Assembly: GCA_028752905.1 (NCBI GenBank)
Contig: JAQNBH010000142.1
Coordinates: 248,001 to 312,000 of the forward strand
Direction: 5' to 3'
DNA length: 64,000 nt
From: Cladorhizidae sp. MBARI D1340-BT2
Taxonomy: Eukaryota; Porifera; Demospongiae; Poecilosclerida; Cladorhizidae
The notes beneath the pieces are model-generated. The model made no database searches. It saw only the letters and a program-made list of their open reading frames with translations, and had not been told where the DNA came from. A program made the translations under genes and the position numbers. Below, piece after piece: positions 2,484 through 30,474 of the stretch (position 1 is its first letter; each line of letters opens with the position of its first letter).

Positions 2484-3305
2484 TCAGAAAAGCTGATACC
2501 CAAGCCGATTGGGTGGCTTTCGCTGTCTGTCGGATCTTCTCAACGGTGGCTTGGGTTGAGCGGTGATAAGGGTCCTTGGTTGGAGGAGGCCTTGGTTATC
2601 GGAGGCCTGGGGCGTAGCTGGCGGAGGAGCTGTAGGGGGGGTGGATGGTAGAGGAGAGAGAGGGGGCCGGGCCGGAGTAGCAGGGGAGGGGGCGTCGGGA
2701 AACGGAAGTATCTCTGGGATCAGGGGGGAAATCACAGGAGCCGGTGTGGTGGTGGTGCTCTGTGGAACGGGGGGCAAGTGGATGGCGATATTGGGTGGTG
2801 GGTGGTGGGGTGGTTTAGAGGCTGCGATGTCCTCCAGGATAGAACGTTGTGACGGTTGGGTTTTGGCCGGGGTGAATCGCCTGAGGTAGCGTCTGTTGCG
2901 GAGGGTCAGGCGGCTTGATCCGTCGACTCTGATTCCGTATTGGTGAAATTGTTTAACTTCAACAACGCAGCCGGTGCGGTCCCATTTGTTGGGAAAGTTC
3001 CCTGTCTGGTTTTGTAGGCGCACCCGGTCTCCAACTTTAAGCGGGGAAAGCTGTCTTGTGTGCTCCGTCCAACGCTCTTGGGCCAGGCTGTGTCTCTGGC
3101 GTAGGGCTGTCTCTCTCTGTGAGAGGTTATCCTGCCATGTAGGGTGAGGGTGGTATTTTCCTGGGACGAGGGGGATGAGATCCCGAGTTGGGCGGCCAAA
3201 GAGGCATGTGGCAGGTGACTGCTTTGGTGGCAGGATCAGGTGAGTTGCGGTATAGGAGTATGGCACGTTGTACTGCGTCCACATCGATGTCACCATCAGA
3301 GCCAA
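2484..3305 (-). pseudogene. Element A pol, part 3: integrase C-terminal region and proline-rich tail
   Basis: This is the last open segment of element A pol. From about 3230 leftward it reads as the end of integrase (LFGRPTRDL), then a basic C-terminal region with VGDRVRLQNQTG and KWDRTG, then about 130 residues rich in proline, ending in RRSDRQRKPPNRLGYQ before the stop. The same order occurs in element C. The first 25 or so codons of the open frame (about 3305-3230) are out of frame with the protein. The break from part 2 is near 3215-3230. Integrase C-termini of this type bind DNA and help target insertion. Confidence 0.8.
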
Positions 3306-5055
3306 CGTTGCCGGCTATGATTCTCTTGACAGTCTTAACTGCTATTTCGGCCCAGCAGTTGCCGTGGGGAAAAGCCGCTGAGGTGAGGCGATGGTGGACC
3401 CGCCAGTCACGGAGCAGTTGTGTGGTCTCGTGAGCTGTGAATTCGGGGCCCCCGTCCGAGGCAAGCTCATCCGGAATGCCATAGGTGGCGAAGGTGTGTC
3501 GTAGTATGGCGACGAGGCCTTTGGATCCTCCTCTTGCCCTGGCGAGGATGGGCCAGTTTGTGTATCTGTCCATGATGACTAAGTAGGCATGGCCTTTGTA
3601 ATGAAAATAGTCGGCGCAGATACATTGGAAAGGGTATTCCGACGGCGTGGGAGGTGTGGGTGGCAGAGCTGCCTGTGAGGGTGCCATCCGGTTGCAGGTA
3701 GTGCATGAAGATCGTAGCTGGTGGATGTCGGCAGTGATGCCAGGCCAGAAGATCGAGGTCTCAGCTCGTGCGGTCATGGCAGAGGTGCCCTGGTGAGCCG
3801 CGTGGAGAGCGGTGAGACACGCTTTCCTGAGGGATGGGGGGATGACGATGCGATCTTTGTAGATAGCGATGCCGTCAGTAGCGTAGAGATGCTGGCGTAC
3901 GTTGAAGTATTCCCTGATGGTAGGGGGTGTCAGAAGTCGAGTGTCGGGCCATCCTTCCTCGATTGTGTCGAGGAGTTTGGACATGGTCTCGTCTGAGGAG
4001 GTGGCGGTCTGGACCTCTTCCCAGGTGGTGATGGATGTGGCCGAGAGTGTGGAGATCAGGGACTCGTGGAGGAGGGTTTCCATGGGGTCTTCGTCGTGCG
4101 AGGCTGTGGATAACCCGGCCATCAGTTGGCTGGGGATGTGGATTTTGGGGTGAAGCTGGACGGAGACAGAGCTGACATCATCTTGGAGATGCATCTTGGC
4201 TGGTGTGGTGGAGCCAGAAGGGTGGCGAGAGAGTGTATCTGAAGCCCTATTCTTGACGCCAGGGATGTGTGACATCTTAAACCTGTAACGGAGGGTCTTC
4301 TCTTTCAGATTCCTCAGCCTCGTGTTGCTGATGTCCAGCGAGCGGTCTCCAAAGATCTTCAGGAGGGGGCGGTGGTCCACAGCTATGGTTAGGTTTTTGC
4401 AACCCAAGACAAAGTGGCGGGCTTTGTCCAGGGCATCAGCCACAGCCAGTGCTTCCCCTTCGATGGGTGCGTATCTTGATTCGGCCTCATGAGTAAATCT
4501 GCTCCCTACTAGCGTGATCTTCCATCCATCCCTGCAACAGAACAGGTCTGAGGATGGGCACTGGCAGTGTTTTTGAAACAGCCAGTACCCTATCCCGTGT
4601 TTCGACCAGTCTGTCGCGAGGCATGTGGGCTTCTCCTTATCGAAGATGGTGACGCCGTGTTCAATCTCGGCAATGATGGCAAGTTTTGAACGGTCGAAGG
4701 CTTGTTGGAGGGCGTCAGTCCATTCGAAGGTGGTGCTGGGTTTCAGGAGGCCTCTGAAGGGGAGCATGATATCTGACATGCTGAAAGCATAGGCGACTTG
4801 GTTGATGAGCCCGAACCAGGATCTGATGTCGGTGAGGCTTCGTGGGGTGGGAAAGTCGGAGATTGCCCGTGTGTACTTCTGGCATGGCCTGACACAGGTG
4901 TTGGTAATTTCGAACCCCGCGAACTCCACTGTTTGTCGAGCGAACCGGAACTTCTCTGGGTTCAGGGTGATCCCATCGTCCGCAGATGTCGAGCCACTCC
5001 TGGGCTTGGTGGAAGCTCTCCTCGATGGTAGAGGACCACAGGAGCGTGTCGTCAA
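3127..5055 (-). pseudogene. Element A pol, part 2: RT end, RNase H and integrase core
   Basis: The meaningful frame runs from about 4985 down to about 3215. It starts inside RT (GITLNPEKF, FAGFEIT), passes the connection domain, then RNase H (CLATDWSKHGIGYWLFQKHC, cut here to ATDWSK; later EGEALAVADAL and VDHRPLL), and then integrase. Integrase shows the zinc-binding histidines and cysteines (HAAHQGTS...SCTTCN) and the catalytic series: D in CADYF, D in SDGGPEF, E in WAEIAVK. The usual NPQSNGRAE-type context before the glutamate is eroded. It is joined to parts 1 and 3 by frameshifts, so no full polyprotein could be made from this copy. Confidence 0.87.
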
Positions 5056-6102
5056 TGCACTTCGTCTTTCTCTCGATCAGTGCCACAATCTCATCATAAC
5101 GCCGGGTGTAGCCGTCCCCAGAAGCGATGTAGCCTTGGGGTGCTGTCTTGTAGCGGTAACGGCCCCATGGCGTTATGAAAGTTGTGAGATGTTTGTCTGC
5201 AGGGTGGAGGGCGACGGAATGGTATCCATTCCATGCATCGAAGACGGTCTTGCGGGTGTTGGGAGGGATGGAACGAGCCTGATGGAAAGGTGATTGGGTG
5301 TGGTGGGTCTCGCGGGTCGCATGTGCGTTGAGAGGCTGAAAGTCGATCGTACGACGTAGTGACCCATTTTTCTTAGCACATGTGACCATGCGATGGCACC
5401 ATGTCACTGGGTCTCCAACTGGGACCTGTTCCAGGACCCCTAGTCTCACATCACGGTCTAGGCCTAGCTTCACCTCGTCCTGCCAATGGAGGGGGACAGG
5501 TATAGGAGAGTGGTGAGCAGTGGGGACAGCGTTGGGGTCAATCATCAGGCGGAGGGGTGGTCCATCCATGAGGGGCAGAGGCTGGTGGTCGCACGTATTG
5601 AAGGTGCTGGTCTTGTACCGATCAAGGAGGAATTTCTCGAGTTTGTCTCGGTTCTCCTCTGTGGCTGGGTATGGGAGCTCGGAGAGGATTGATGGCGGCT
5701 GTGAGCGTCGTGGACAGGGGCATGGCCTCGGTGTGTTGGGTTGTGGCGTGTCTGGAGCAACTGCCGTGGGATGATTTGCTGTTAAGGAACAGTGGGTGGT
5801 TGGGAATCCAGTAGGGATGATCCCGAGGTCGGTGCACGTTTCCCTGCTGAGAAACAGGTTGGAGACGTGACCAGTGATGTAGACCATCTGTCGTGAGGAT
5901 CGTCGGCCTTGTGGTTCTGCGATCTTGACCAGTATGGCCCCCAATATCTTGATGTCACTGTTGTTGGCAGCGTGCATCTTAAGGGAGACAGGTAGCAGGT
6001 CAGTGGTCTTGAGTCCGAGGCGCTTCATAGTGGTGGTGCCAGCTAGGCAGCTTTGGCAGCCGGTGTCGGCCATGGCCTGGACTGTGATTCTCCTCTGGGG
6101 AG
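4715..6102 (-). pseudogene. Element A pol, part 1: protease and reverse transcriptase
   Basis: The frame continues to 6154, but its first 17 codons are element B LTR sequence; element A sequence begins at 6102. The protease active site ADTGC lies at about 6070-6056. RT follows with FDAWNGYHS, FITPWGRYRY, PQGYIASGD and the catalytic CIDDTLLW (IDD at 5056-5048, an I-D-D version of YxDD). The meaningful frame ends near 4985 at a one-base shift; codons beyond that to 4715 are out of frame. Insertion of B severed the protease from gag, just before its conserved start. Element C keeps that junction unbroken. Confidence 0.87.
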
Positions 6103-6296
6103 TGTCAGCTTTCCACTCTCTACTCAACTTCTTTAGCTTGAGTAGTGGGAACAACTGCGACGCCCTAATATAACTATTAACTTACTGTCACAATTACTAC
6201 TAGAGCCAAAATCAGACTACCCTTCCTGGTAGCTGTTTCCCCCTGCCTAGCCCGAAACTAGTAGGGAATAGCGCCTTGCTATTGAATGGGTTAAAG

Positions 6297-6302
6297 TTTA
6301 TT
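6297..6302 (-). promoter_or_regulatory. Candidate polyadenylation signal in element B LTR
   Basis: AATAAA on the sense strand lies about 420 bases into the LTR. The same site is at 10496-10501 in the other LTR. Use is inferred from position only. Confidence 0.45.
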
Positions 6303-6437
6303 AAGAAACTGGATAACTATCCAAGCCTCTTTAACTGCAATATCACATATACTTACAACAATACTCAGTTGTACTATAGTCAGTTTTTAAACTAAAACAA
6401 TCCCGCGTCTCTAACAACAACAATCGCCGTTAGCTGA

Positions 6438-6445
6438 TGACGTCA
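6438..6445. promoter_or_regulatory. CRE-like palindrome TGACGTCA in element B LTR
   Basis: This perfect 8-base CRE/ATF-type site overlaps the Pol stop codon (6445-6443). It is repeated at 10637-10644 in the 5' LTR, where it would lie in the promoter-proximal part. CRE-family factors are known to drive several LTR promoters; activity here is inference. Confidence 0.4.
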
Positions 6446-9400
6446 CTGTTCGTCATCAGTGGATTCGCCACTCCGTAAATAAACCCGTAAGGGCACCGTC
6501 TCGTAGCCCTCCGCTGGCCTTCCGTTGCGAAGATTCCCTTTGTGAGCTTTGTTGGCAACCACATGTCCTTTTGGAGAGCTTTCCTTTTGATAGCTTCGTT
6601 GTTGAGTATATCTTTGTGGCTTTGTTAATTGCTCATTACTGTTCTTATTCGTTTGTAGGTGCTGTGCTGTCTCATACTTGTCTAGTGCTGGGCACTCTGT
6701 AGTCAGGGTTGAGATCCCTGACACTCCCTCAACCTTAGTCAGAGACCCCTGGTCTCTTGATAACCCATCAGCATTGGCGTTCTTGCTGCCACTTCGGTGT
6801 ACAATCATAAAATCATATTGCTGTAATGATAGGGCCCACCTTGCCAACCTGCCATGACTGTCCTTCAGGTTGCCAAGGTGAGTTAATGGGTTGTGGTCTG
6901 TTTCGATTGTAAACTTTGATCCTTGCAGATAGGTACGAAAGTGTTTAACTCCTTTAACAATTGCCAGAGCCTCGCGCTCTATGGCAGAGTAATTTCTTTC
7001 ACTTTGTAACAACTTCTTTGAGGCGAAAGCGATCGGATGCTCTTCCCCTTTTTCATCTACCTGACTAAGGACATAACCCAATCCAAATGCTGACGCATCC
7101 GTCTGTAAAATAAATGGTTTGGTCCAATCTGGCATGACTAACACCGGTGCTCGGGTGAGTACTTCTTTTAGCTCAACGAAAGCTTTGTCGCATTTCTCAT
7201 TCCATTTAACATGCTTAGGCATACTTTTCCTTGTAAGTTCGGAGAGGTGTGTGGCAATAGATGAAAAGTTAGGAATAAATTTCCGGTAGTAACCGCAAAG
7301 ACCTAAGAAAGAACGGACGTCCTTTTTAGTCTGGGGCTGCTTAAAGGTCTTCACTGCCTCCACCTTACATTCCATAGGCTGTACCAAGCCACTCCCAACT
7401 ACGTGTCCCAGATATACGCAACTACCACTTCCGAAAGTACACTTTCTCTCTTTTACTTTTAACCCAGCTTCTCTTAGCTTGTCGAACACAATTTCCAAAT
7501 GACCTAGATGGTTCTCCCAGGTATCACTGTGGATAATAATATCATCCAGGTACGCAACAGTGAACTCATGCAATCCATTCAATAAACCATCCATTAACCT
7601 CTGGAAGGTAGATGGTGCTGAAATTAACCCAAAGGGCATCGTCAAAAACTCATACTTTCCGTATGGAGTCACAAATGCTGTCTTTTCTCTGTGTTGAGGG
7701 TTTACGGGGACCTGATAATAACCTTTCGTTAAATCCAGGGTGGTTATAAACTTTGATGAGCCAATGTTAGCTATCAGGTCTTCAATATTTGGGAGTGGGT
7801 ATGGGTCATTAATGGTCACCTTGTTCAGTTTCCTGTAATCTACACACATACGTTGTGTGCCGTCCTTTTTCTTTACCAATACAATAGGCGCTGCCCAAGG
7901 GCTTTTGGATGGTCTAATTATTCCCTGATCAAGGAGTGTTCTTATCTCCTCTCTCAGTACCTCTTGAGAGTGGTGGGCCAACCGGTAAGGGTGCAATCTT
8001 ATAGGCACAGCATCTCCTGTGCGTATCTCATGCTGCACAACTTGTGTCTTTCCCGGTACATCTTGCAATACATCTTTGTATTTTTCCTTGAACTTTTGAA
8101 TGTCTAAGTGATGAGGGTCTAGCATGTGTGAGGTATGCACAACCTCATCATTCTCCAAATCTTCCTCGTCGTCGTCACGGGCTAAGAATGTAGCTGACTC
8201 AGGAGGAGTCCACAACTTCATGCAATTGACATGAAAGGTTCGATACTGTTTTAACCGGGTTCCAAAATCTACTTGGTAAGTTATTTTGGTGATTTTTTTC
8301 ACAATGGGAAAGGGTCCTTGCCATTGATTGTGTAGTTTGTCCGGTCTAAATACTAACACGAATTCGCCTACAGCAAAGGATCTCTCTTTAGCCTTCTGGT
8401 CAATGTGTTTCACTTTTTCATCTCTCTCTTTCTTATAGACCAAGTCTCGTACTACTTGCATATTTGCTTTGGGTGTAGCTATATATTCACTCACGCTACT
8501 TTCATCAGACACTTCTCCGTCACAGTCCTCAGTGGGAGAGGTCATCTCATCCTCGGTCTCTGCTCCTAACTCCTTCATCTCACTTCCATTTTCGACCGGG
8601 TAGAGAGAAGATATGATGGGCTGGTCCCGCTCCTGTTGAAGACCCTCCTCCTCCTCGAGGTTGTCTTGCTGTATCTTCTGGGCACGGGTGACTACCAGGC
8701 CTGACTCGGTCGTGATGGAAGTCGATGGGGCGTTCTTTTCTTCAATTTCTAGCTCTTCACTGAGAGCCTTCTTCAGATACTGCCTGAAATGGGGAATGTC
8801 TCTTCCCATCAGCATATCTTCAGTTATGTGCTTTGACACACCTACAGCAATGCAGGTAGACTTCCCTTCTACCTCCAGCATGACACTTGCTGCTGGGAAG
8901 TATGTTTTCCTTTCTGAAGCTGTACTATATGGAATAGTCCATCCTAAGTAATCTTTCTCAGCTACACATCGAGGATGCACAATGGTTTTTGTGCATCCAG
9001 TATCAAGTAATGCTGTTATTTCATGACCATTGATCCTAACTGTCTTGGTCCAGTCGGGCATCTTGGGTTTCCTTTGAGTGACAAGGCTGCATTTCGCATT
9101 TTCAACTTTAACCCGACAATCTCGCTGGTAATGACCTTTCTTGCCACATTTAAAGCACTCAATCGTTCGCAGGTCACGGTAAGGAGGAGGTCCATCTCTA
9201 CTCCTTGGTGAAGGTCCATCGTTCTTTCGAGAGTCTTGACTTGCCAAACGGTTGTGTGTTCCTTTCGAAAATGGTTGATACTCTTTTTCCTTTTTAAATG
9301 GTAATCTCTCAGTTTTTGTCCTTTGGTTTCCCAAATGTCTCACGATGGATTCTGTCAGCTCAGCATAATTTTGGCAGTTTAAGTTCCTCATTTGGGTTTC

Positions 9401-10171
9401 GAGCCACGGTGGTAATTTAGCCAGGACTAATTCCATCATTACTACCTCTCTGGTAGGTACCTTTGTAGAATCCAACCATTGATGAAAATTTTGCCGGAAG
9501 TCCCGCAACCACTGATCAGGTTTGTTTGAATTAAAACACTGCTCAAACACTTTCTTACGATGTGATTCAGTAGACATTTGATACACTGACAAAAGTGTGC
9601 TCTTCACCATCTGGTAGTCGGCCTGTTGGACCGCCGAAAGTGCAGACACAGCCAACAGCCCGGCTCCAGACAGTGAGCCCCTCAGGTGGATTGACCATAA
9701 TTCCACTGGCCATTCACTGGCATAGGCAGTGGCTTCAAACGTATCCAAATACGCTGACATGTTGTCTGTTTCCTCAATAAATTTCTGAAGGTGCAGATGT
9801 AGTACTGGTGTAGGTGGTGGAGTTCTTGCTCGAGCTCCCTGTACTCCTTCCATCAGTCTCATGAAATGGTCCTGCTGGTCTGCTATTGCCTGACGGTCTA
9901 GTTCCCGCTGTTCAGCTGCTTGTGCCTTCTCCTTCTTACGGACACTAGCCTCTTTATCCAGACGTGTGGCTTCTCTATCAACACGGCTCTGTTCGATAGC
10001 CAACATTTGTTCCATAAAGTTTTCCATACTATCTTCCTCTTGCTGGTCGGTTGGTATGTGACTTCTTAAGGTTCTCCGTCGTTCGTGGGACATATAACTA
10101 TTAAGAAACAACTCGACAACTGTAATAATTATTAGTGAACAACTTAGCCTAGGCTCAGGGTTGGTTTGCAA
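6443..10171 (-). CDS. Element B Gag-Pol polyprotein, 1242 aa, integrase core missing
   Basis: One open frame without breaks. Order by residue: charged coiled coil 42-105; capsid region about 125-280 whose second half (FRQNFHQWL...ELVLAKLPPWL) resembles a SCAN domain; CCHC zinc knuckle CFKCGKKGHYQRDC 339-352; aspartic protease LLDTGC 388-393; acidic linker; an integrase C-terminal GPY/F-type module 573-657 (VGEFVLVF, QWQGPF, FHVNCMKLW); RT 700-930 with YLDD at 874-877; RNase H with QTDAS near 1023 and ETDHNPL near 1090. Residues 1150-1242 are encoded by the LTR. Integrase before RT is the Gmr1-type order. The integrase zinc-binding and DDE domains should lie between about 500 and 573 and are absent without loss of frame. 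Start could be Met1 or Met27. Confidence 0.9.
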   Translation of the reverse strand: MQTNPEPRLSCSLIIITVVELFLNSYMSHERRRTLRSHIPTDQQEEDSMENFMEQMLAIEQSRVDREATRLDKEASVRKKEKAQAAEQRELDRQAIADQQDHFMRLMEGVQGARARTPPPTPVLHLHLQKFIEETDNMSAYLDTFEATAYASEWPVELWSIHLRGSLSGAGLLAVSALSAVQQADYQMVKSTLLSVYQMSTESHRKKVFEQCFNSNKPDQWLRDFRQNFHQWLDSTKVPTREVVMMELVLAKLPPWLETQMRNLNCQNYAELTESIVRHLGNQRTKTERLPFKKEKEYQPFSKGTHNRLASQDSRKNDGPSPRSRDGPPPYRDLRTIECFKCGKKGHYQRDCRVKVENAKCSLVTQRKPKMPDWTKTVRINGHEITALLDTGCTKTIVHPRCVAEKDYLGWTIPYSTASERKTYFPAASVMLEVEGKSTCIAVGVSKHITEDMLMGRDIPHFRQYLKKALSEELEIEEKNAPSTSITTESGLVVTRAQKIQQDNLEEEEGLQQERDQPIISSLYPVENGSEMKELGAETEDEMTSPTEDCDGEVSDESSVSEYIATPKANMQVVRDLVYKKERDEKVKHIDQKAKERSFAVGEFVLVFRPDKLHNQWQGPFPIVKKITKITYQVDFGTRLKQYRTFHVNCMKLWTPPESATFLARDDDEEDLENDEVVHTSHMLDPHHLDIQKFKEKYKDVLQDVPGKTQVVQHEIRTGDAVPIRLHPYRLAHHSQEVLREEIRTLLDQGIIRPSKSPWAAPIVLVKKKDGTQRMCVDYRKLNKVTINDPYPLPNIEDLIANIGSSKFITTLDLTKGYYQVPVNPQHREKTAFVTPYGKYEFLTMPFGLISAPSTFQRLMDGLLNGLHEFTVAYLDDIIIHSDTWENHLGHLEIVFDKLREAGLKVKERKCTFGSGSCVYLGHVVGSGLVQPMECKVEAVKTFKQPQTKKDVRSFLGLCGYYRKFIPNFSSIATHLSELTRKSMPKHVKWNEKCDKAFVELKEVLTRAPVLVMPDWTKPFILQTDASAFGLGYVLSQVDEKGEEHPIAFASKKLLQSERNYSAIEREALAIVKGVKHFRTYLQGSKFTIETDHNPLTHLGNLKDSHGRLARWALSLQQYDFMIVHRSGSKNANADGLSRDQGSLTKVEGVSGISTLTTECPALDKYETAQHLQTNKNSNEQLTKPQRYTQQRSYQKESSPKGHVVANKAHKGNLRNGRPAEGYETVPLRVYLRSGESTDDEQ
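6724..6730 (-). promoter_or_regulatory. Element B polypurine tract
   Basis: Sense-strand GAGGGAG directly precedes the 3' LTR. The tract is short, but position and purine content fit. Confidence 0.6.
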
Positions 10172-10280
10172 GTTCCCTGGTTTACACCTGAACTGTGTCC
10201 CTGACTTAGCTAGCTAACAATTCACAACTCAATCACTACTGGCTAATCCTATTAGCTAGTTCTGGTAGTTCTGGGATACA

Positions 10281-10300
10281 GAATCCCACCGCTGCCACCA
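10281..10300 (-). promoter_or_regulatory. Element B primer-binding site, tRNA-Leu type
   Basis: The sense strand reads TGGTGGCAGCGGTGGGATTC, one base inside the 5' LTR. It is complementary to a 3' tRNA end of CCA plus an acceptor and T-arm that match, from memory, animal tRNA-Leu(AAG). It shows that B uses a host tRNA primer, unlike elements A and C. Confidence 0.8.
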
Positions 10301-10301
10301 A

Positions 10302-10922
10302 TGTCAGCTTTCCACTCTCTACTCAACTTCTTTAGCTTGAGTAGTGGGAACAACTGCGACGCCCTAATATAACTATTAACTTACTGTCACAATTACTACT
10401 AGAGCCAAAATCAGACTACCCTTCCTGGTAGCTGTTTCCCCCTGCCTAGCCCGAAACTAGTAGGGAATAGCGCCTTGCTATTGAATGGGTTAAAGTTTAT
10501 TAAGAAACTGGATAACTATCCAAGCCTCTTTAACTGCAATATCACATATACTTACAACAATACTCAGTTGTACTATAGTCAGTTTTTAAACTAAAACAAT
10601 CCCGCGTCTCTAACAACAACAATCGCCGTTAGCTGATGACGTCACTGTTCGTCATCAGTGGATTCGCCACTCCGTAAATAAACCCGTAAGGGCACCGTCT
10701 CGTAGCCCTCCGCTGGCCTTCCGTTGCGAAGATTCCCTTTGTGAGCTTTGTTGGCAACCACATGTCCTTTTGGAGAGCTTTCCTTTTGATAGCTTCGTTG
10801 TTGAGTATATCTTTGTGGCTTTGTTAATTGCTCATTACTGTTCTTATTCGTTTGTAGGTGCTGTGCTGTCTCATACTTGTCTAGTGCTGGGCACTCTGTA
10901 GTCAGGGTTGAGATCCTTGACA
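10302..10922 (-). repeat. Element B 5' LTR
   Basis: This copy is 621 bases, identical by eye to 6103-6723 except for one base near the outer end. It carries an orphan copy of the Pol C-terminal coding segment (10923-10642, 93 codons). That segment has no function here and exists because the LTR overlaps the end of pol. Confidence 0.95.
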
Positions 10923-12168: not shown

Positions 12169-12188
12169 ATTGTCAGTCAATGACAGCA
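12169..12188 (-). promoter_or_regulatory. Element A self-complementary primer-binding site
   Basis: These 20 bases abut the 5' LTR. The first 11 on the sense strand, TGCTGTCATTG, are exactly complementary to a segment of the same LTR, and complementarity extends to 20 bases with one mismatch (LTR segment at 12253-12272 and 2308-2327 on the plus strand). No tRNA-type TGG primer site is at this position. The arrangement matches Tf1-type self-priming, in which the 5' end of the RNA folds back to prime reverse transcription. Confidence 0.75.
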
Positions 12189-12377
12189 TAAAGAATAAGG
12201 CATCCGCCTATTTGCATCAAACTCGCACAAAACATCATGTGGTGATTAACAATGCTGTCATTGGCTGACAATGCCTGGTAAAGGGCTTACGTTAGGTAAG
12301 GGGTCTACGCTAGGTAACGGGTCAATAGCTACCTATACATATGCGTGTGCGTGTTAGTTACTGTTGGTTATTGTCTA
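12189..12377 (-). repeat. Element A 5' LTR
   Basis: This is a 189-base copy of the LTR at 2246-2432. The self-primer complement lies 106-125 bases into it on the sense strand, so the RNA is predicted to start near there, about 5 bases after a CCCTTTACC motif (plus 12277-12285). The loop between primer and primer site would be about 64 bases. Confidence 0.93.
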
Positions 12378-12428
12378 ATTACTGTGTAAGGGTTCAGTTA
12401 GAGTCTTGTCCAGGGACACCCTGTGACA
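12378..12428. mobile_element. Solo LTR, right part
   Basis: This resumes the sequence interrupted at 2245, beginning with the ATTAC duplication, and ends CACCCTGTGACA followed by the GTTAG duplication at 12429-12433. Confidence 0.75.
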
Positions 12429-12553: not shown

Positions 12554-13684
12554 TGTACGAGGCCCAGTACATAACAATTATTGACGATAAAAAATGGCTA
12601 AAGAGAAGTAGAATCAAACAATAATGAATGAGAGGCAGTCACTTCCATGACTAAAACTTGAGGAGTGAAGGAAGTGGGCAACCACTGCTGTTTGAATTAG
12701 GTCTCTACAAGAACTCTAACCACTGTCTCTCTAGCCACTGTCAAAAACTAACAACAACCTATGACTTTACAGTTACCTTCTCAATAATCAACTTGAAATT
12801 GTAAGTTGATTATTGAGGTTATTGTAATGTTATTATGTCAACTGAGAGTTCATTGAGAACCTAGACTATTGCAACCAAGCTACCTGGCTATACTAAGTCA
12901 ACCATAGACATCTTATTACAATGACCTTCTCACCAGAGATTAAATTTCAAGTTGATTTATTGTAATATCGTGATGTCAACTGAGAGTTGGTTCATAGATA
13001 TCTCACCTGAACTTTTGGATGCACACTCCCTCAGCTTCCAATTGCTTTAGGTCTTCCAGAGGTGCGGTAAGGTACATCTAATTCTGCTGTTCCTCTGCTA
13101 ACACGAAAGATCTTGTTTCAGTGAATGCACGACCCTTTTCCATTTACCCTGGAGAAAAGGAAAAGGATCGACAATGCGTGAAATTTGCGCGGTCAGTAAT
13201 TTTGTCCAGCGTATTTTAGTCTCGATGCAATATATAGGCAAGCTAGATAGTTATATTTACAAGCGACTTGTAATCTGCTTGCTGGGGTTCAGCAACTACG
13301 AGACTCTCTTTTCATAGATTATGCTGCGACAACTTTAGGGCGACTAATTATCTGTGGACAACACCCTTCACGGATTCACTGCGCAGCTACAGTGCCTTGG
13401 TATATAAAGTATCGCAGTTTCTTTTTTTTATTTTAGGATTGGTACCCCAGGAAGCTTTATATTTTTATCAGCCAAGTCTGGTGGCAGGGCATGAATGGAA
13501 GAGGCAGGAAATCTTTCCTCGCATCCTTGATCGCAGATTTTTAAACCTCCCTGTCTCTGGTCATTATTCTCATCACTAGGAATGCAGCAAAGGAAGTCTT
13601 GCATGAACTTCATGTTTATAATTAAGAGCCTTGGTAGAGGATCAGCTACAGCTACTTTCAAATATGTGCTAACATTTGCACATG
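12554..13684. other. Module a, first copy (non-coding)
   Basis: This non-coding module occurs four times: here, at 32617-33080 plus 35302-35450 (same orientation, split by the Harbinger element), and inverted at 35821-36372 and 50186-51327. It includes a foldback near 12780-12816 (15-base stem CTCAATAATCAACTT). A 77-codon minus-strand frame (13428-13661) has a counterpart at 50263-50505, but differences between them are nearly all amino-acid changing, so coding is not supported. Confidence 0.7.
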
Positions 13685-13689
13685 ATATG

Positions 13690-13872
13690 TAGTTAAGCTC
13701 AGTAAGCTATTCACCTAGCTGATGCAACTGGACGAGTTCAACAAGTTATCAGTAGGAAATGTGTATAGCGAATGAATGTGTGCTAGTATGCATGCGCGAG
13801 GTAAAGGAGTCGTGTGTGAGGTAAAGGGCCGTACGTAGCAATGTTTATACATGTAAGGGTGGTTATTGTCTA
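13690..13872 (-). repeat. Element C 3' LTR
   Basis: This 183-base LTR starts TAGACAATAACC on the sense strand, as in element A, and ends CTTAACTA. It differs from the 5' copy at two bases (GGCCGTACG/GGCCTTACG and TACATG/TACCTG). The self-primer complement is at 13760-13773. Confidence 0.95.
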
Positions 13873-13885
13873 TCTCCCCCCAAGT
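13873..13885 (-). promoter_or_regulatory. Element C polypurine tract
   Basis: On the sense strand a G-rich purine run (CTTGGGGGGAGA) directly precedes the 3' LTR, as in element A. Confidence 0.75.
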
Positions 13886-13890
13886 CCGTC

Positions 13891-15684
13891 TTAAGGGGGA
13901 CTGATAGTTCTCTGTCCGTAGCGTACGACTGGTTTTGCTCCTCTCTTGCTGCGTCTCAGCGCGGCCGCTGGGTTGGGGTTCTTGGGGGGGTTGATGGCGG
14001 GCGTCAAGGCCAGGGTTTTCTGGGCGGTCTGGGTGGGGCGATGAGGCGGGGTTCCGGTGCCGGTGACGGAGGCGTATGATCGTCCGTCTGCCGGGGTAGC
14101 CAGCAGGGCGGGCTTTGTTGATGTTGATGGTGGATGTACAGGTGTCCCCGGTGTAGTAGGGGGCAGTTTGGTCTGGGGTATCGGTTGAGGGGGCGGGAGC
14201 GGTGGGGGGGCGATCTGGGGTGGAGTAGATGGTGGTGGTATGGGAGGGGGGTATTCAATGGGGGGTGGAATATAGGTTGGTGGTATGGGAGGGGGGTATG
14301 CAATGGGAGGAGTGCCAGGCAGCGGACGGCTGAGCGGGTGAGTCGGCTGGGCTGGTTGAGTCTCCGTCTGACGACGTAGGAATCGTCTGTTCCTTGTGGT
14401 GAGGCGGCCCGATCCGTCCATCCTCACGGCATATTGGTGGTACTGGAGCACCTCCACGACCAATCCAGTTTTGTCCCACTTCGTTGGGTGGCGGCCTGTC
14501 TGATTTTGGATGAATACTCTGTCACCGCAACGAAGGGGGGAAAGGCCGTGGGTGTGTTCGTCCCAGCGTGCTCTGCCGAGGGTTTGGCGATGGGATCTGG
14601 CTTGTTGCCTCTGGTGGAGTTGTGATTCTGATGCATGGGTTTGTCGCAGCCGCGTGGGGAGGCCGGGTAGTGCATCACGGATGGGGCGACCAAATACGCA
14701 TTCGGCGGGTGACATCCTTGTGTCTGGGTTCGGGCTGTTGCGGTAGACCAGGAGGGCCTTGTGGAATTTGGTGGTGAGTGTGCCTCCTGGTCCTGTGTTC
14801 CCCGAAATGAGCCTCTTCATGGATTTGACCGCGGTCTCTGCTCGGTTATTGGAGTGTGGGTTATAGGCAGAGGAGGTGCGGTGGTGGATGCCCCAAGAGG
14901 TGAGGAGCTCCCTGGTGGTATGAGCGGCAAATTCTGGGCCGCCGTCCGAGGTTAGAGTGGTGGGGATGCCATAGGTGCTGAATGTCTCTCTCAGTATGGT
15001 GGCGAGGCCTGCTGCGCCGTTGGTGGCCGGTTTGGTGATTGGCCAGCCAGAGTACCGGTCCACCAGCACAAGGTATGCGGATCCTTCGTGGTGGAAGTAA
15101 TCCGCGTGCTGGAAGGGGTACTCTGGCTCTTCTGGGGTGACTGACGGCATGGCAGGTTGAGAGGGGGCGTTGCCGTTGCATGCTGGGCACCTGTTCCTGG
15201 TTGCAGCGATGTCTGCGGGCATACCCGGCCAGTACAGGGAGGAGGTGGCTCTGGCAGTCATCCCGCTCGTGCCCTGGTGGGCTGCATGGAGGGTGGATAG
15301 GCAAGTTGGTCTCAGGGATGTGGGGATGATAAGTCGTTCCCCGTAGCATACCACACCGTCTACGATGGAGAGGTGTGGGAGGATTGAGAAGTAGTCCCTG
15401 ATGGGGGCTGGGAGCATCTGCCTGTTGTCGGGTGTGCCTTGCTCGATATAAAACATCAGGTCCTGAAGGGTAGCGTCGGAGGCGGTGGCTGTCTGGAGGT
15501 GCTCCGAGCTGATGGGGATCGAAGAGATTGCCTTGCAGACGGCGGTGGAGAGGCCGGACTCGTCTATATGCGCAGAGTGTGGAGGCAGGGCTGCCCGGAC
15601 AGGCTGGGCTGGGGTTCGCAACATCATCGGGGAGGTGGAGCTGGGGAGGCATCCGGGTTCCGGATGGGTGGCGTGAGAGGGCAT
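13891..15684 (-). pseudogene. Element C pol, part 4: integrase and proline-rich tail
   Basis: The meaningful frame begins near 15600. Integrase is the best preserved part: zinc-binding residues (HAAHQGTS...RCPACN), then catalytic D in HADYFHH, D in SDGGPEF and E in NNRAETAVK, then CVFGRPIRD and a basic C-terminal region (GDRVFIQNQTG, KWDKTG). A long proline-rich tail ends in RRSKRGAKP just before the polypurine tract. Compared with element A, two residues are missing before the first aspartate (YPFQHADYF against YPFQCICADYF), an in-frame 6-base loss. Integrase itself may be intact, but it is cut off from RNase H by a frameshift. Confidence 0.87.
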
Positions 15685-16441
15685 CGCTGGTGAGGTTCTT
15701 AACGCCAGGAATGTACACCATCCGGAACCGGTACCGGAGGGTCTTCTCCTTGATGTTGCGGAGGCGTGGGTTAGGTATGTCCTCGAGGCAGCGATCCCCG
15801 AACAGTTTGAGGAGGGGCTTGTGGTCTACAGCTACCACTAGATCGCTGCACCCGAGGACGAAGTGCCGGGCTTTGTCTAAGGCATCCGCCACTGCCAGAG
15901 CCTCGCCCTCCACAGGGGCGTAGCGGGACTCGGCAGGGTGGGTAAACCTGGAACCCACAAGGGTGACGCGCCAACCCTCCCGACAACAGAGGATCTCCCG
16001 GGATGGGCACTGGCAGTGCTTCTGGAATAGCCAGTACCCTATCCCGTCTTTGCTCCAGTCTGTTGCCAGGCAGGTTGGGCGGTTTCGGTCGAATATGGCC
16101 ACCCCATCGCGAATCTTCTCTACAATCTCCGACTTGGATGCCTGGAATGCGTGGTCCAGGGCTGGTGTCCAGAGGAATGGTGAGGTGGGCTTCAGGAGGG
16201 CCCTGAATGGCAACATGGTGGCGGTGAGGGAAAATGCATAGGCGACCTGGTTCACCAACAGGCGCGGATGTCCGTGATGCTTGCTGGGGTGGGGAAGTCG
16301 GTGATAGAGTTGACGAACCTCGGAGCTGGTCGTACTTCGGAGGGGGTGATGTCGAACCCGGCAAACTCCACTCTGTCCTGGGCAAAGCGGAATTTGCGCG
16401 GGTTCAGGGTGATGCCGTTCACGGCACAGATGTGGAGCCAC
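14861..16441 (-). pseudogene. Element C pol, part 3: RNase H
   Basis: Only about 16262-15600 of this open frame is in register with the protein. It gives the end of RT (NQVAYAFS, MLPFRALLKP), then RNase H (ATDWSKDGIGYWLFQ, EGEALAVADALDKA, VDHKPLL) and the connection to integrase (SDALSRHPSG). Both ends of the frame are out of register. Relative to element A, about 7 bases are missing near 16255, which explains the shift from part 2. RNase H removes the RNA template during reverse transcription. Confidence 0.82.
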
Positions 16442-17016
16442 TCAGTCGCCTGGTGGAATGCTCCCGTGATGTCGTCCGACCAAAGCAGAGCGTCGTCGAT
16501 GCACTTGGTCTTCGACATCACGTTGGCGACGAGGGCATCGTACCTGGCCGTGTAGGCATCACCTGAGGCGATGTACCCCTGGGGGGCCGAGCAGTAGCGG
16601 TACCTTCCCCAGGGGGTGATGAAGGTGGTGTAATGGCGGTCAGCTTCTTTGAGGGCCACGGAGTGGTAGCCGTTCCAGGCGTCGAAGATGGTCTTTTTGG
16701 TGTTGCCTGGAACGGCTCTTGCCTGATGGAATGGGGATGGGCAGTGATGGGTCTCGCGCGTGGCGTGCTGGTTGAGTGGTTGAAGGTTGATGGTCCTCCT
16801 GAGTAACCCGTCCTTCTTGGTGCAGATGATCATACGGTGGCACCAAGTGACGGGCGCACCCAGGGGGACCTTCTCCAGCACGCCGAGGAGGACGTCCCGA
16901 TCAAGGCCGGCCTTCACCTCGTCCTGCCAATGAATTGAGATATCAATGGGGTTGTGGCAGGGTTTGGGGATGGCGTTGGGGTCAATGTGGAGGGAGAGGG
17001 GGGGTCCTGACATCAT
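16252..17016 (-). pseudogene. Element C pol, part 2: reverse transcriptase
   Basis: This covers the RT fingers and palm: ATRETHHCPSPFHQ, FDAWNGYHSVAL, FITPWGRYRY, APQGYIASGDAYT and the catalytic CIDDALLW (IDD at 16500-16492), then GITLNPRKFRFAQ. It ends at a stop just after TDIR, where element A continues with the connection domain. The frame differs by one base from the protease segment upstream; the break is at 17013-17020. Confidence 0.87.
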
Positions 17017-17774
17017 GGGAAGGGTTGATGCTCACAGACATTGAACGCACTTGCTGAGTATAAGTCCAGCAAGTGACGTTCAAGCCTGTGACGGTTGGCC
17101 TCAGTGCCAGGGAATGGCAGGGAGGTGGGTCTGACAGGGGGCGGGGCACGGGTGGGGCATGAGCAGGGTCTGGGTTGGTTATGGGAAGGTTTGCTCACCA
17201 CAGGTGTCGAGGGGCTGTCCATAGTTCTGGTCTGCAGGTTCGCGACTTCAGGGGGTGGGGGCCGATTCGGGGTCGCCCATGCATCCGTGCCGTCTCTCGA
17301 AGGTGGCGTCTGCTTGCAGAGGGGAAACTCCGTGTGAATCAGTCCCAGATCGATGCAGCTGGCCAGACTGAGATATAGTTTGGAGGCCAGGTCGCTGAAG
17401 TATACCATCTGCCGCGTTTCACGGCCTGAGTGGATGGATATTCTGAGGAGAGCGGCACCCTTGATGGGGAGGGGGTTGCCACTGGCGGAGCTCATGAGGA
17501 GCGTGGCCGGGACCAGGTCGTGGTCAGTAAGGAGCAGTTCCTTCATGAGGGCTGGGCCTGCCAGACAGCTCTGGCACCCCGTGTCAGCTAGGGCTGTGGT
17601 GGCGATATTGTGCCTTTCTACCCTGAGGGTGTGGCCGTGGGCCCTGAAATCCTCTCGGTGGGACGAGACTCTCACCTCCATGTTGGGTTGGGGCGGGGAG
17701 CGGCGTTGGGTCCAGGTCATGGTGCTGGAGTCCCACGATTGGTGTGGTAGCGATCCCTCGGTCATGGTTGCCAC
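17013..17774 (-). pseudogene. Element C pol, part 1: protease and spacer
   Basis: It has the aspartic protease motif ADTGCQSC and a flap-like region (QMVYFSDLASKLYLS), then a proline-rich spacer leading to RT. It lies in the same frame as gag. Between the gag stop (17882-17880) and 17774 the frame stays open and encodes the second zinc knuckle, so gag and protease are separated only by one UAA codon. Confidence 0.85.
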
Positions 17775-17879
17775 TGTCTCGGAGATCGCGCTCTCTTGCT
17801 CCGCCTGTCTCGACCAGCACAGCTGTGCGTAGTGGTGTTGTCTACCACAGGAGGAGCAAGTGGAGCCAAAGGCGGGGCA

Positions 17880-18854
17880 TTAGAGCCTTCGCACCGCTGT
17901 CCGTTCCCTCTCACCGTGGCCTTGGTGGCCACAGAAGCAACACACTGCCTTCGGGTTGATCTTGGGGCGGGTGGTGTTGCTGGGTTGCCCTCTGTTCTGT
18001 TGGGGCAGGTTCCGGGGGTGTGTGTGGGAGATGGGTGAGCGGCGTTGGGTCCAGGTCTGTGTTGTCCTTGGTGTGACTGGGTTTGGCTGTCTCTGTTGGC
18101 GTCGGTACGCGCTATTGATAGCATCCCCTTGGTCATGGTCGTCACCCAATGAGTCTGTCGAGGTGGGTGTGGTGATGGTGACCGCGGACCGCTTGCCTGC
18201 GGCCCTCACCTCGACAAACCTGATTGTCTCCTCGACAGTCATGTTTTGGTTTGTGTCTTTTAGGAGATCTTCCTGAATATCTGCATCTGCCAGGCCGATG
18301 CAGAGTTGATCGGCAACTCTTTGCTCCCCTTGGCTGTTGACGACTTCACAGCCAGAGCACTTTTGTGTGAACCTGCACACCTCAGATTGGCCTCGGAGGC
18401 GGGCAGCGTACGAGCGAATGGGTTCCCCCCGGTCCTGCACCATGCGGGAGAGGGCGACCCTGGCCACTTTCGGGTTCTCCTCCCGCACTGCAAGGGCCTT
18501 GATGGCAGCGAGGAGGTCTGTCTCCGAAAAATCTTCAATGGGTAAAGGGCCCACCGCATTGCGGGTGACGTCCCTTCTTAGCTTCGGCTCGAGGCACTCG
18601 AGCAGCTGGATGGCCACATCAGTGCCCGTTAGTCTTACTGCCATGGAGTATGCCCTCCATCTGGTGGCAAAGTAGTGCCAGGCTTCAGTGGTGCCCCCGG
18701 CCGTTATCTCTGGGCGCTTGACCGGGGTGGGCTTAGCCCGGGTCGCCTGGCTGTGGATCAGCATGTGTCCATTCAGCACGGCCGCAGTCACCACGGGGAT
18801 CAACTCTGCTGGTGTCGAGAAGTCGCAGCCGGGGTATGGGCAGTCAACAGCCAT
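17880..18854 (-). pseudogene. Element C Gag, cut by an in-frame stop between zinc knuckles
   Basis: The 324-residue frame starts with a C2H2-like finger (CPYPGC, 19 residues, HMLIH) as in element A. The capsid-like region follows (WHYFATRW, QLLECLEPKLRRDV, VREENPKVARVAL, YAARLRGQ), then the first knuckle CCFCGHQGHGE. A UAA codon (17882-17880) sits exactly where element A reads into its second knuckle. In the same frame after the stop come CPAFGSTCSSC and HHYAQLC, so the knuckle pair is otherwise complete. A nonsense mutation is the simplest reading. Stop-codon readthrough as a Gag/Pol ratio device is possible but would be oddly placed. Confidence 0.82.
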
Positions 18855-18945
18855 TAGGAGGGTGGGCGGTAATTGGAAATATCGAACAACGGTCCCCCTC
18901 CTAACTTCTTCGGGCGGGGCTAGGTACTACCAATCACTATCGAAG

Positions 18946-18959
18946 ATTCGCTATACACA
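18946..18959 (-). promoter_or_regulatory. Element C self-complementary primer-binding site
   Basis: The sense strand reads TGTGTATAGCGAAT directly after the 5' LTR. This 14-mer is the exact reverse complement of a sense-strand segment 100-113 bases into the LTR (plus 19030-19043; also 13760-13773 in the 3' LTR). The loop between them would be about 70 bases. No tRNA-type TGG is at the LTR edge. Geometry matches element A and Tf1-type self-priming. Confidence 0.8.
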
Positions 18960-19142
18960 TAGTTAAGCTCAGTAAGCTATTCACCTAGCTGATGCAACTG
19001 GACGAGTTCAACAAGTTATCAGTAGGAAATGTGTATAGCGAATGAATGTGTGCTAGTATGCATGCGCGAGGTAAAGGAGTCGTGTGTGAGGTAAAGGGCC
19101 TTACGTAGCAATGTTTATACCTGTAAGGGTGGTTATTGTCTA
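18960..19142 (-). repeat. Element C 5' LTR
   Basis: This 183-base LTR holds two CCTTTACC motifs (plus 19090-19098 and near 19071-19078) upstream of the predicted RNA start at the self-primer segment. Confidence 0.95.
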
Positions 19143-19147
19143 ATATG

Positions 19148-20563
19148 GAGGAATAATCAAATGCTATATACTCTATTGCTACAAGTATAATCCAACAAAT
19201 TGCAGATTGCCTGCAGGTCCTCTTTATTTCTTAGAAGAAGATTCTCAGTAGACAAACTGAGTGTAAACTATATAATGTGCTAGAATTAAATACAGCTGCA
19301 TTAGCTAAAGGTTTTGATACACTTGCATAAGTCCTATAATTATGTATACATAATTATATAAATAAGGTTGCAGAGTATTAAGCTGTAGCACAGTGCAACC
19401 ACTGTTAGCTAAATAGGGGAATTTAATTTTTGAGTTGAGACCACTGGCTGGTCCCCAGCTGCCAGGTTCTCCATTGCCACCATGAGCACCTTCTCTATCT
19501 AAACTTTTCTCTCCACAGAGTGAGCCTTTCATGAAAGCAGTTGACCATTCACTTCTTTGCAGAGAAAGCATGTAGCTGCTGCACCAGCTCAGCCAGGCTC
19601 AGTCACACACATGTACACACACATGCATACACACACACGACTATTCTGTTTATGTTCCTTACCAATTCTTGTGCTTGGCTGAATTAAAGAAACAGCCATG
19701 GGATTCTTATAATAGCAAATTTATGAACATGGACATGGTAATATGTAAGTTACAATATCACAAGGAGGGAAAAGTAACATAACAGACAGGATGAAATGTT
19801 TCTCCCATATGTTCCATCCTTATTTGTTCAATCACCTGGTGTGTGTGTGTGTGTGTGTATGGTGTGGTTGTGTGGTGTCGGTGGATAAATAGACAAAAAA
19901 GATAAAAAGTATAGAAAACCAAAACCAGAACTTGATCGAATTTACTCATCAAAATATACAGCAAGCAAATAAATGCACTTGCTTATGAAGTCAACTATAT
20001 ACTGCACGGACAGGTAAATGAACTTTATTATGTATTTTTGGACTACAATACTTAATCTCCATTATATTACAGCTGGTGCATATATAGGTGTCTGGGCAGG
20101 TGTCTGGGCATGTAACATCCCACACTACTGATGCACCACACTTTCATGGGACCAAACTGATGCCATCCGGCTGTTTGCCATTTGATCTGAACACTCCATT
20201 GGATTCGAGTTGAGATGGGATCTTTGCAGATGCCACTGGGATGACATTGAGCCAAACACCAGATTCTTTCCATGCCGTTAACAAACATGCACGATAAGTT
20301 TCAGAACTAGCGTCACTTAGCAGCTGATGGAATGAATGTAGCAGTGGAGAAGAGAAGGAAGGAGATGAAAGTAATAGTTTGGGAATGTAAAATGCATGAC
20401 GGAGGAGATGCAATGCATCATGAGCATGGAGGTCACTAAGTCTCTCTCACAAAATGTATCTTCTTCCCAACAATGCCTTTCGCTCCATCAATCAGTGAAC
20501 CCAAAAGGATGACCCTGGGTTCACTACCAAAAACATAAATAAATCAAGCTTTAAAAAAAAATA
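19148..20563. other. Module b, left arm
   Basis: This sequence matches 48721-50180 in reverse. It includes a (GT)n run at about 19840-19858 and, at 20066-20440, a decayed coding relic listed separately. Nothing else is recognisable. Confidence 0.7.
20066..20440 (-). pseudogene. Relic of a retroelement-associated PD-(D/E)XK-like domain
   Basis: The minus strand encodes a fragment with LLSDASSETYRACLL, WKESGVWLNVIP, then RSNGKQPDGISLVP and, after a stop, VVWDVTCPDT. The combination 'KxPDGxxxxPW...WDVTxxDT' is one I recall from many invertebrate retroelement-linked proteins, and it has the spacing of a restriction-like nuclease core (PD...DVT). The middle of that domain is missing and the frame is broken. 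A sister copy lies at 48930-49195 on the plus strand. The family assignment is from memory and tentative. Confidence 0.5.
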
Positions 20564-20608
20564 TTTTTTTAAAATATTATAATAATAAACATAATAATAA
20601 TAATAAAC

Positions 20609-20682
<74 letters not shown>

Positions 20683-20690
20683 CATGTTTG
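20564..20690. repeat. (AAT)n microsatellite, left arm
   Basis: An A/T run is followed by about 27 AAT units with a few interruptions. The reverse-complement counterpart is at 48401-48720. Confidence 0.9.
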
Positions 20691-23262
20691 ATATTAAACA
20701 CCAACAAAGAATAATAAAAAAGAATAATAAATAACTGAATACAGAATAATTATGGTGGGCGTGGCTTCAAGTTCACCAGGCTCTTGAGAGTGGCCCCCCA
20801 GCAGCCAGGCAAGTCCATTCCACAGTCACGATTGAACCACTCACACTTTGGTGCTAGGCTGATGTGCAATGCCGCAGTTCTTTCTGTCTTCTGGCCTGGT
20901 CCACGCATCTAGTCGAAACATCGAGAGAGTAAAATTATTGAGGTCATTCTAATTAATATAATAATAGTAGTAGTAGTAAATAATAATAACAACAACAACA
21001 ACATAATGGACTTGATCAGGCAAGAGTTAATATCTAAGGTGAAAAATAGAATTCAAAGAAACATCATATTTCTGAAAAGCTTGTTTATAGAACATATTAT
21101 TTGAAGTTATGGAACATTTTAGTCTCGGACAAGTCAGATTTGTGATTTGTCGAACCTTCTTTTCTGTGACTCGAGATATTTAAAAACCAATTAGCATGGA
21201 AATAAATTTATTTGTAGTTACATAATCCACAAGCGATATTTGAATAATATGGTTTTAGTATATAGGATTGTGGTGATGAATTCTGTCATCACAATTTTCC
21301 TTTTTCCTTGCTGTCACACACACAACTATCTTAGGCAGACAGCTGAAGGAAAGCATATTATTGGCACACACTAATAACTTGCACTGGGTGCATGGCAATT
21401 ATGAAATATTGCTATTTTTCTTTATGTACTAAAGAGGCACTTTTATGAAATTCCGTTACCCAGTAATGGTATTTAAACTGTTTTCAGTAAAACTTCTTGA
21501 GCAATCCAACAGCAAGCAATATTATATTCATACAATTTCCTTTCATTGTATTTCAAAGACCACTCCTAATATTTAGCATGAATATACTGTGGGACTGGTT
21601 GTGACCACTTCTAAGAAGTAATACCAAGTTATTAACATGCAAAACAATGGCCAACTTTATTAATAGTCTTTCGCACTCTACTAGAGGACTTTAGATCATT
21701 TTCTCACCTCCCACAGGTGACATCTAGGTTTCACATATAAGGGCAAATTGTCTGAACTCTTCTTGTACAATTTGTACATTGTAGTGTACCTGATCTTGCA
21801 TCAATCAGTAAAGCACCCATATGCAGCTGCAGGGCTTATAGATCAAGACAGGGTTGGGTCCCAAAGGGTTTGAATAAGTGAGGGTTGTACGGTGTTCTCT
21901 TCTTGGCTGCCCAGCCACCTACATGTTCCGTCTCTGCTTCTCTCTCACTGCCTCTGGGTTGGTGGCTCTGACCTTCTTCTTCCTCTCACAGTCTCTCTGC
22001 TTCCAGGCCTGCTCACCATCTCTGCCCTCTTCTGCTCATGTTTATTACTCTGTAGAGTATCCAGTGAGTTAGTTTGCAATGTTGTTCAGGTCTGAGTCAG
22101 CATGGCACTCAGTGCTGCTGAGATACAGCACCACTACCATGAGCAGAAGTGGGCAGAGATGGTGAGCAGGCGCAGAGAGACTCTGAGAGGAAGAAGGCAA
22201 GAGCCACCAACACAGAGGCAGTGAGAGAGAATAAGAGGCAGAACCTCCATAGGTGGTGGGCATTCAAGAAGGAGAAGCAGTCCCGCAGATACCTCAGTAG
22301 ACACCCAACCTGGAGCAGGGGCAGACCTCGGACCTGGCAGTTTTGTTGCCATTCCTGTTGCAACTGAACGAGGCTGGTATTTCTCTACATGGCAACACTG
22401 TGTAGCATGCAGGAAGAGCAGATGCAGCTGAAGTTCCTCGGCAAGGTGGGCAACTCTGGTGTGTACAGGGATCCAGAGTGGGAAGACAACATTGGGGCGT
22501 GCCCAGAGCTGCAGGTGAAGGGAACTTCACGCCTACAATACTCTAGAGTTCATGGTTGCACAGCGAGCAGTGATGGCTAAGTACACCACTAAGTACAGAG
22601 ACTATACGATATGATTGTTCTATCATCTTCAAAAGCAGTACACCTACATTGTACAGACATGTATATGATACTCATTGCAGGCATCAGAAAAGTGAAGCAG
22701 TCAGTGCCAATGATTAGTTGCTGTACATAGCAGCATGGAATTAAATAAATTGTACCCAGCAGGTAAATGAGGTGATCAACATGGATAGAGCAAGTATGCA
22801 GTCCACAGGAGAGCCATGCGCATGGTTATAGACATCTGAAATTCCTTTACTATGAAATTACGTTAGCTTTTTTTTACTAGAAGGATTGCTGAAGCCTTCA
22901 TGTATATATAGTGTGATAACCCTGCACCAATACCAGATCCCACCATCAAGCCATTTATATATAAGAACAGCAGGTTATATGACACTGTGTGCAACACTGA
23001 AAATTTGATGTTAATTTTACGATATTCCATTACGTGTTTTTTTCCTGGCCTCACTCAAAGACAGACCTCACTCAAAGACAAAAATATTTATGGAAATAAA
23101 ATATTGAGTAACATTAAAGTGTCAATGGAGACCTACATGCCTGAGATATAGTTTTTATAAAATGTTGAGTCTTTCTTGCCCCATATGTAGTGAAAGGGAA
23201 ATTCCGTTACCACGTGATCAAATCCAATAATAATGTTAATAATAATGACGATGATGATACAT

Positions 23263-23265
<3 letters not shown>
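20691..23265. other. Modules d and e, left arm (no gene recognised)
   Basis: This 2.6 kb is duplicated in reverse at 45916-48400 with near identity. A stretch around 21880-22560 is CT/AG-rich with several overlapping short frames on both strands. None resembles a known protein and several are broken differently in the two arms. No RNA gene was seen. Confidence 0.6.
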
Positions 23266-23332
<67 letters not shown>

Positions 23333-23344
23333 CAACAATAATAA

Positions 23345-23413
<69 letters not shown>

Positions 23414-30395: not shown

Positions 30396-30474
30396 TCATA
30401 ATCAGTTATCTAGTGTTGCTGAAGGTCTGTTATCAACTGTCATAAGCGTAACCTTCTGAGGAAAATTTCTGATA

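Follow-up and report, generated by a model that had tools for sequence, protein, structure and literature searches.

Putative priming of reverse transcription by the RNA 5' end in a divergent clade of animal Ty3/gypsy-like retrotransposons

Introduction

Two LTR retrotransposons, here called A and C, lie in a 64,000-nucleotide stretch of DNA from a cladorhizid sponge (the window). In both, the bases just inside the 5' LTR are complementary to a segment of the LTR itself. This raises the question of whether these elements could use the 5' end of their own RNA, in place of a host tRNA, as the primer for reverse transcription.

Such a mode is described for Tf1 of S. pombe, in which the first 11 nt of the RNA pair with the primer-binding site (PBS) and RNase H cuts between nucleotides 11 and 12 (PMC7175516). 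A similar self-priming has been proposed for Tj1 of S. japonicus (PMC4600332), and Tf1 requires a U5-IR-like RNA structure, according to the title of a paper cited in PMC7175516. Self-priming has been predicted from sequence for most plant Tcn1 elements and for TAR copia elements (Houba, Osr-1), and is tied to few lineages, namely Tf1/sushi, the Tcn1 chromoviruses and TAR copia (PMC6317226). For SM-Tcn1, the excerpt of PMC2864245 reports that evidence of neither tRNA priming nor self-priming was found. Elsewhere, elements that have no TGG have been assumed to be self-priming (PMC5006619). Among the gypsy elements common in marine invertebrates are the Mag lineage (clades A, B and C) and the mollusc and annelid MolGy and PolGy (PMC8556966). 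The sources cited here by PMC number were available as excerpts or titles, and the statements taken from them extend that far. No description of self-priming in a non-chromoviral animal gypsy clade was present among the literature matches listed (titles and abstract openings).

Results

Element A is on the minus strand, as are all the element features located below. Its 5' LTR (12189 to 12377, 189 nt, TAGACAATAACC...CTTATTCTTTA) is 98.9% identical to the 3' LTR (2246 to 2432, 187 nt), and the termini of the element on the minus strand are TAGACAATAACC...TTCTTTA. The target-site duplication (TSD) GTAAT was found at 12378 to 12382 on the 5' side and at 2241 to 2245 on the 3' side. Between the LTRs there is a pol fragment with RNase H, the integrase zinc finger and the integrase core (3127 to 5055, Pfam), and a reverse transcriptase (RT) fragment with the active site CIDD (4715 to 6103). 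Near the 3' end of A we also observed a 59/118-bp tandem array (596-1890). Element C spans 13690 to 19142, with LTRs of 183 nt each (5' at 18960 to 19142 and 3' at 13690 to 13872) and the TSD CATAT. It starts with the same 12 bases as A, and its pol is related (69% nucleotide identity over 1.2 kb). The LTR bounds of both elements are firm, since each is flanked by its 5-bp TSD.

Element C was inserted in one arm of a large inverted duplication (12554-24000 against 51327-42090; blocks mostly 93-96% identical, one 85%). The other arm contains the empty site, with one copy of the TSD (50178 to 50185). Long tandem arrays, some of which contain long open frames, were also seen in the window in both orientations, with units of 60 bp (26089-28453, 38499-39281 and 54960-61395), 37 bp (24576-25668 and 40182-41502) and 46 bp (29871-30400, 36643-37339 and 52332-53613).

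Nested in A is element B (6103 to 10922), a different Ty3/gypsy-like element with an LTR of 621 nt (TGTC..GACA) and the RT active site YLDD. B is a recent insertion, younger than A, and its LTRs are 99.8% identical. The PBS of B (ttggtggcagcgg) contains TGG and self-pairing is absent, and B was used as an internal control.

In A, the 11 nt just inside the 5' LTR (TGCTGTCATTG) pair exactly with LTR positions 115-125, and the helix extends to 20 nt with one mismatch (LTR 106-125). The self-primer arm (ATTGTCAGCCAATGACAGCA) is at 12253 to 12272, with the exact 11-nt core at 12253-12263, and the putative PBS (TGCTGTCATTGACTGACAAT) is at 12169 to 12188, directly at the LTR edge. In C, the candidate self-primer (ATTCGCTATACACA, LTR 100-113, 19030 to 19043) and the putative PBS (TGTGTATAGCGAAT, 18946 to 18959) form 14 of 14 pairs. 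The loop is 64 nt in A and 70 nt in C. The positions, the minus strand, the exact 11-nt match, the 20-nt helix with its single mismatch and the two loop sizes had all been put forward in an original prediction made from the window, and we recovered every one of them.

We compared the matches with dinucleotide shuffles of the LTRs (20,000 for each element). For A, the 11-nt edge match was reached in four shuffles and the extended score in none. None of the shuffles of C reached 14 nt, while in the control element B as many as 17,250 equalled or beat the real sequence. We also scanned all TA|TG sites of the window (692, counting both strands) for at least 9 exact pairs with a loop of 45-85 nt. 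The only sites to pass were 12188 (11 pairs) and 18959 (14 pairs), which are the 5' LTR edges of A and C.

Six more families were obtained, five in this genome and one in an annelid contig. A genome search with the RT of A, together with 18 fetched stretches, gave families D and E and further copies of A. The stretches held 2 loci of D, 6 of E (one with no LTR pair detected) and 10 copies of A (one likewise); copy counts from protein or DNA searches are lower bounds here and below. Family F is a contig of the annelid Escarpia laminata (L009) with a single, apparently collapsed LTR, and is one relative from one scan of bacterial and archaeal genomes. This annelid retroelement contig had been binned in a bacterial MAG that represents a species genome. 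Scans of viral contigs gave no relative, and the plasmid scan gave nothing beyond a distant Wolbachia match.

Families G, J and K are lineages with open frames that came from a search with a Hydractinia protein, and their distinctness in pol was judged from match tables alone. They were chosen before their leaders had been seen. From the spacing in A, D, E and F, their LTR end was expected to lie 2361-2443 nt upstream of a fixed position in RT; 321 nt of each were read, without their 3' LTRs. In this blind test the self-primer structure was present in all three, and in none of 100 shuffles of each.

The eight families (A, C, D, E, F, G, J and K) are not independent draws, as D and E resemble each other closely (87% integrase identity) and have primers that begin alike, and A, D and K have U5 sequence in common; together they formed 101 of 104 Watson-Crick pairs over 13 positions. 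The three unpaired positions were 12 in A, 7 in D and 2 in G, and three or four pair types occurred at each of positions 3-11. When primers and PBSs were swapped between families (56 combinations), the mean was 4.86 of 13 pairs and the maximum 8, and sliding the arms by 1-3 nt left only 9-33 of the 104. The observed total was attained by the true assignment alone among 40,320. Without the first two positions, a nearly invariant TG, there were 86 of 88 pairs, and once more only the true one of the 40,320 assignments reached this number. The integrases of A, C, D, E and F are 50-87% identical to one another, so that the pairing has been kept while the proteins diverged widely. Across the genome, both arms were exact at 76 places for C and 51 for E (not all of them separate insertions, since some look like parts of duplicated segments), and the backward-pattern controls gave none.

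The geometry was thus kept with differing sequences in all eight families, three of them preselected blind, and the pairs persisted despite changing letters when the families were aligned for compensatory changes. Both outcomes agree with what had been predicted from A and C. The original prediction had further read this as covariation under selection. Its first part, conservation of pairing across families, stood; the cause may be selection, copying of the primer, or both.

An exact-run scan of 2,398 sites, covering the window and the own-genome loci except three short ones, found 46 with at least 9 pairs (38 in A, 6 in E, 1 in C and 1 unexplained), which are not independent since the loci overlap. 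None of the 46 belonged to D. The longest exact run from the edge in D is 6, as a result of an A.C mismatch at position 7, and it fails a 9-nt scan. This mismatch was present in both copies of D that were read, in both LTRs. The unexplained site, an own-genome TA|TG site outside the window (TGTTTTATCACA), is in none of the eight families.

The copies of A were examined through 45 matches spanning both arms, which gave 27 rows of flank, primer and PBS. The flank of the window copy was seen in three of these rows (contigs C13, C36, C44, C45, C46, C47, which is the window, and C48). The remaining 24 rows represent 23 sites, since two of them (L038 and L057) are the same place. The mismatch of the window copy, at PBS position 12, corresponds to a C at LTR 114, present in both its LTRs. 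This C was otherwise confined to the places with the same flank; LTR 114 is T at all 23 other sites, and none has C. The contigs that have both the flank and the LTR variant (C13 near 50.67 Mb, C36, C44, C45, C46 and C48) may be duplicates or alternative versions of a single locus. Pairing was complete (20/20) at 8 of the 23 other sites, and 12 of the 15 that fell short did so only at positions 13-20. PBS positions 1-12 were fully paired at 20 of the 23. Of the other three, two were altered at position 1 (in one case to a G.U wobble) and the third had a gap in its primer arm. Mismatches that recurred between sites affected PBS position 14 at 6 sites, position 18 at 3 and position 15 at 2, the gapped copy being one of these two.

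The families also share their anatomy. In all eight the helix begins at the first base after the LTR, the loop between the arms is 52-71 nt, and the PBS is complementary to the predicted 5' end of the element's own RNA. The PBS starts with TG[ACT] in all eight and with TGG in none. A tRNA-complementary site at the LTR edge would have spoken against the original prediction; no PBS began with the TGG needed for the 3' CCA of a tRNA, and we rejected priming by a tRNA 3' end on this ground. ARAGORN (bacterial code) detected no tRNA in the window or in 19 loci, and no Rfam family passed its gathering score in the window.

An initiator-like YC|A motif is shared by the families, and the predicted transcription start is its A (GTC|A in element A, at 12266). 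A CCTTACC-like element lies upstream of the predicted start in A, D, E, G and K. The primer would be 13-15 nt long (21 nt in G), with its end at CA|TT in seven of the eight families and at TA|TT in the G copy. In A, the self-primer arm is followed by TTG, and the probable cleavage at CA|TT is 14 nt from the predicted start. The complementarity extends upstream of the predicted start by 6 nt in A and 3 nt in J, which leaves the start or the primer length uncertain. The LTR ends are TA...TA wherever they were seen. They occurred with an exact 5-bp TSD at 7 of the 16 fetched loci with an LTR pair (A, D and E, with BLAST bounds); at the other 9 the BLAST bounds were shifted or cut.

A 4-bp U5 hairpin was found 6-10 nt before the LTR end in all eight families (AGGC-GGAT-GCCT at 12198 to 12209 in A, 9 nt before the end; AGCT-TACTG-AGCT at 18966 to 18978 in C), which is only suggestive, since in each family 11-16% of mononucleotide shuffles also give 4 bp and the hairpin was picked post hoc. 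The folding of the leaders, proposed earlier as a check, placed the stem in the predicted folds of all eight families. The number of shuffles (per 200) that folded as well was 3 for A, 2 for C, 12 for D, 10 for E, 1 for J, and 0 for F, G and K. Predicted fold energy by itself is a weaker sign than the pairing, and is not exceptional in every family.

The order of pol between the LTRs is RT-RH-IN, as in Ty3/gypsy-like elements. The LTRs of A and C do not have TG...CA ends; they end in TA...TA, with 5-bp TSDs. The RT active site is CIDD in A, C, D, E and F, and C[IV]DD in place of YxDD was observed in the window (4715-6103 and 16252-17016, both minus strand) as well as in relatives. The motif pattern was recognised in 54 of the 120 relatives examined, and 52 of these have C.DD. 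In the RNase H region, D149, E201 and D227, which we take to be the catalytic residues, were invariant in 17 aligned relatives. No chromodomain was found at E<=1 in the scanned C-terminal pieces of A, C, D and F, or at E<=0.001 in the frames of A and C. We did not place the clade in Tf1/sushi, since it has no chromodomain match, TA...TA ends and a C[IV]DD active site. The RT-RH of F scored 96 bits against Ty3 and that of element B 385, which indicates that the clade is divergent. Relatives among the 120 matches listed of 1,180 proteins included sequences from Mytilus, Elysia, Nucella, Argonauta, Hydractinia, Paramuricea and Meganyctiphanes; a wide spread of self-priming is an extrapolation, since these relatives are represented by protein sequences alone.

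Discussion

The complementarity lies at the exact edge of the LTR, and it is conserved while the sequence changes. Judged from sequence, the best reading is a putative self-primed reverse transcription like that of Tf1. A and C thus very probably belong to an animal clade of Ty3/gypsy-like elements in which the RNA's own 5' end serves as the primer for reverse transcription. Transcription would start at the A of the initiator-like YC|A. The first 13-15 nt (21 in G) are predicted to fold back over the loop of 52-71 nt, and this 5' arm would pair with the PBS that abuts the LTR, in line with the predicted fold and the conserved pairing. The element RNase H would then cut this duplex behind CA|UU, leaving a free 3' end that lies opposite the first base of the PBS and would prime minus-strand DNA exactly at the LTR terminus ...TA. 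The 4-bp U5 hairpin may aid the positioning of the complex. As such a primer would be independent of host tRNA, its sequence would be free to drift while the arms stay complementary.

A chance inverted repeat has a negligible claim. Matches of 2-5 nt are common, but the shuffles, the 692-site scan, the blind families, the covariation with its assignment statistics and the exact arms across the genome all contradict it, and we rejected it. Stems that act in packaging, dimerisation or translation control are present in retroviral leaders, and the fold-back could be a stem of this kind in an element primed by another RNA. This is improbable, since a packaging stem need not start at the first post-LTR base, as the helix does in 8/8 families; this base is the place required for the primer 3' end, and the PBS offers no TGG to a tRNA end. 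Half-tRNA priming is known in plant copia elements (PMC6317226), and here too the primer might derive from the interior of a host tRNA or be some other small RNA, the LTR match being secondary. We hold this to be more remote still, as the eight different PBSs would need several RNA sources, each of them with a similarly spaced counterpart in the LTR.

A further explanation accepts self-priming and attributes the covariation to the primer being copied into the new PBS during plus-strand synthesis, and not to selection on pairing. Copying is conceivable if the primer stays attached to the minus strand, the title of one paper cited in PMC6317226 says that the Tf1 self-primer is not removed, and the mismatches common to several copies of A are confined to PBS positions 14, 15 and 18. 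A strict copying model is weakened by D, in which the position-7 mismatch was kept in 2/2 copies and in both LTRs, and by the window copy of A, in which both LTRs have C at position 114 and PBS position 12 was not renewed; copying is therefore at least not obligatory. The D mismatch and the mismatches shared among A copies make copying in every cycle unlikely, and suggest some tolerance. We regard copying in place of selection as possible, though rather doubtful.

Read as self-primed, the A/C clade resembles Tf1/Tf2 and Tj1 in that a segment at the 5' end of the RNA can pair with a PBS close to the 5' LTR and no tRNA acts as primer. Those elements are fungal and belong to the Tf1/sushi chromovirus branch, whereas the present clade has TA...TA LTR ends, no chromodomain match and C[IV]DD. 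The primer is 11 nt in Tf1, against a predicted 13-15 nt here (21 in G). Self-priming in the vertebrate sushi group was reportedly described by Butler et al. in 2001. The vertebrate sushi elements are like the A/C clade in that self-priming would occur in animals; they are chromoviral, with the LTR ends TGTYANR..CNTNACA (PMC3601003), in contrast to TAGACAAT..TTTA in A. The LTR motifs of Mag A and Mag C start with TGT and end with ACA in the excerpt of the same source, unlike TA...TA here. Tcn1 (fungi, moss) and the TAR copia elements are of chromovirus or copia lineages, unlike the present clade. Troyka was also considered, and was rejected for its CG..CG ends and 3-bp TSDs (PMC12440569).

We lean, by a little, towards a broader picture, in which a widespread, non-chromoviral Ty3/gypsy-like clade of marine animals does without tRNA priming, its self-primers drifting while pairing, start, cut and loop stay fixed, as a second, separate occurrence of the Tf1 type. 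Programs that find a PBS by its match to a tRNA may miss such elements. The eight families would offer a natural covarying set of primers for probing the cleavage rules of RNase H. tRNA-primed elements are vulnerable to targeting by 3'-tRNA fragments (PMC7472051), and self-priming could free the clade from it. If the picture is true, tRNA independence arose or survived more than once, here in a divergent clade of animal elements, many of whose copies are nearly identical.
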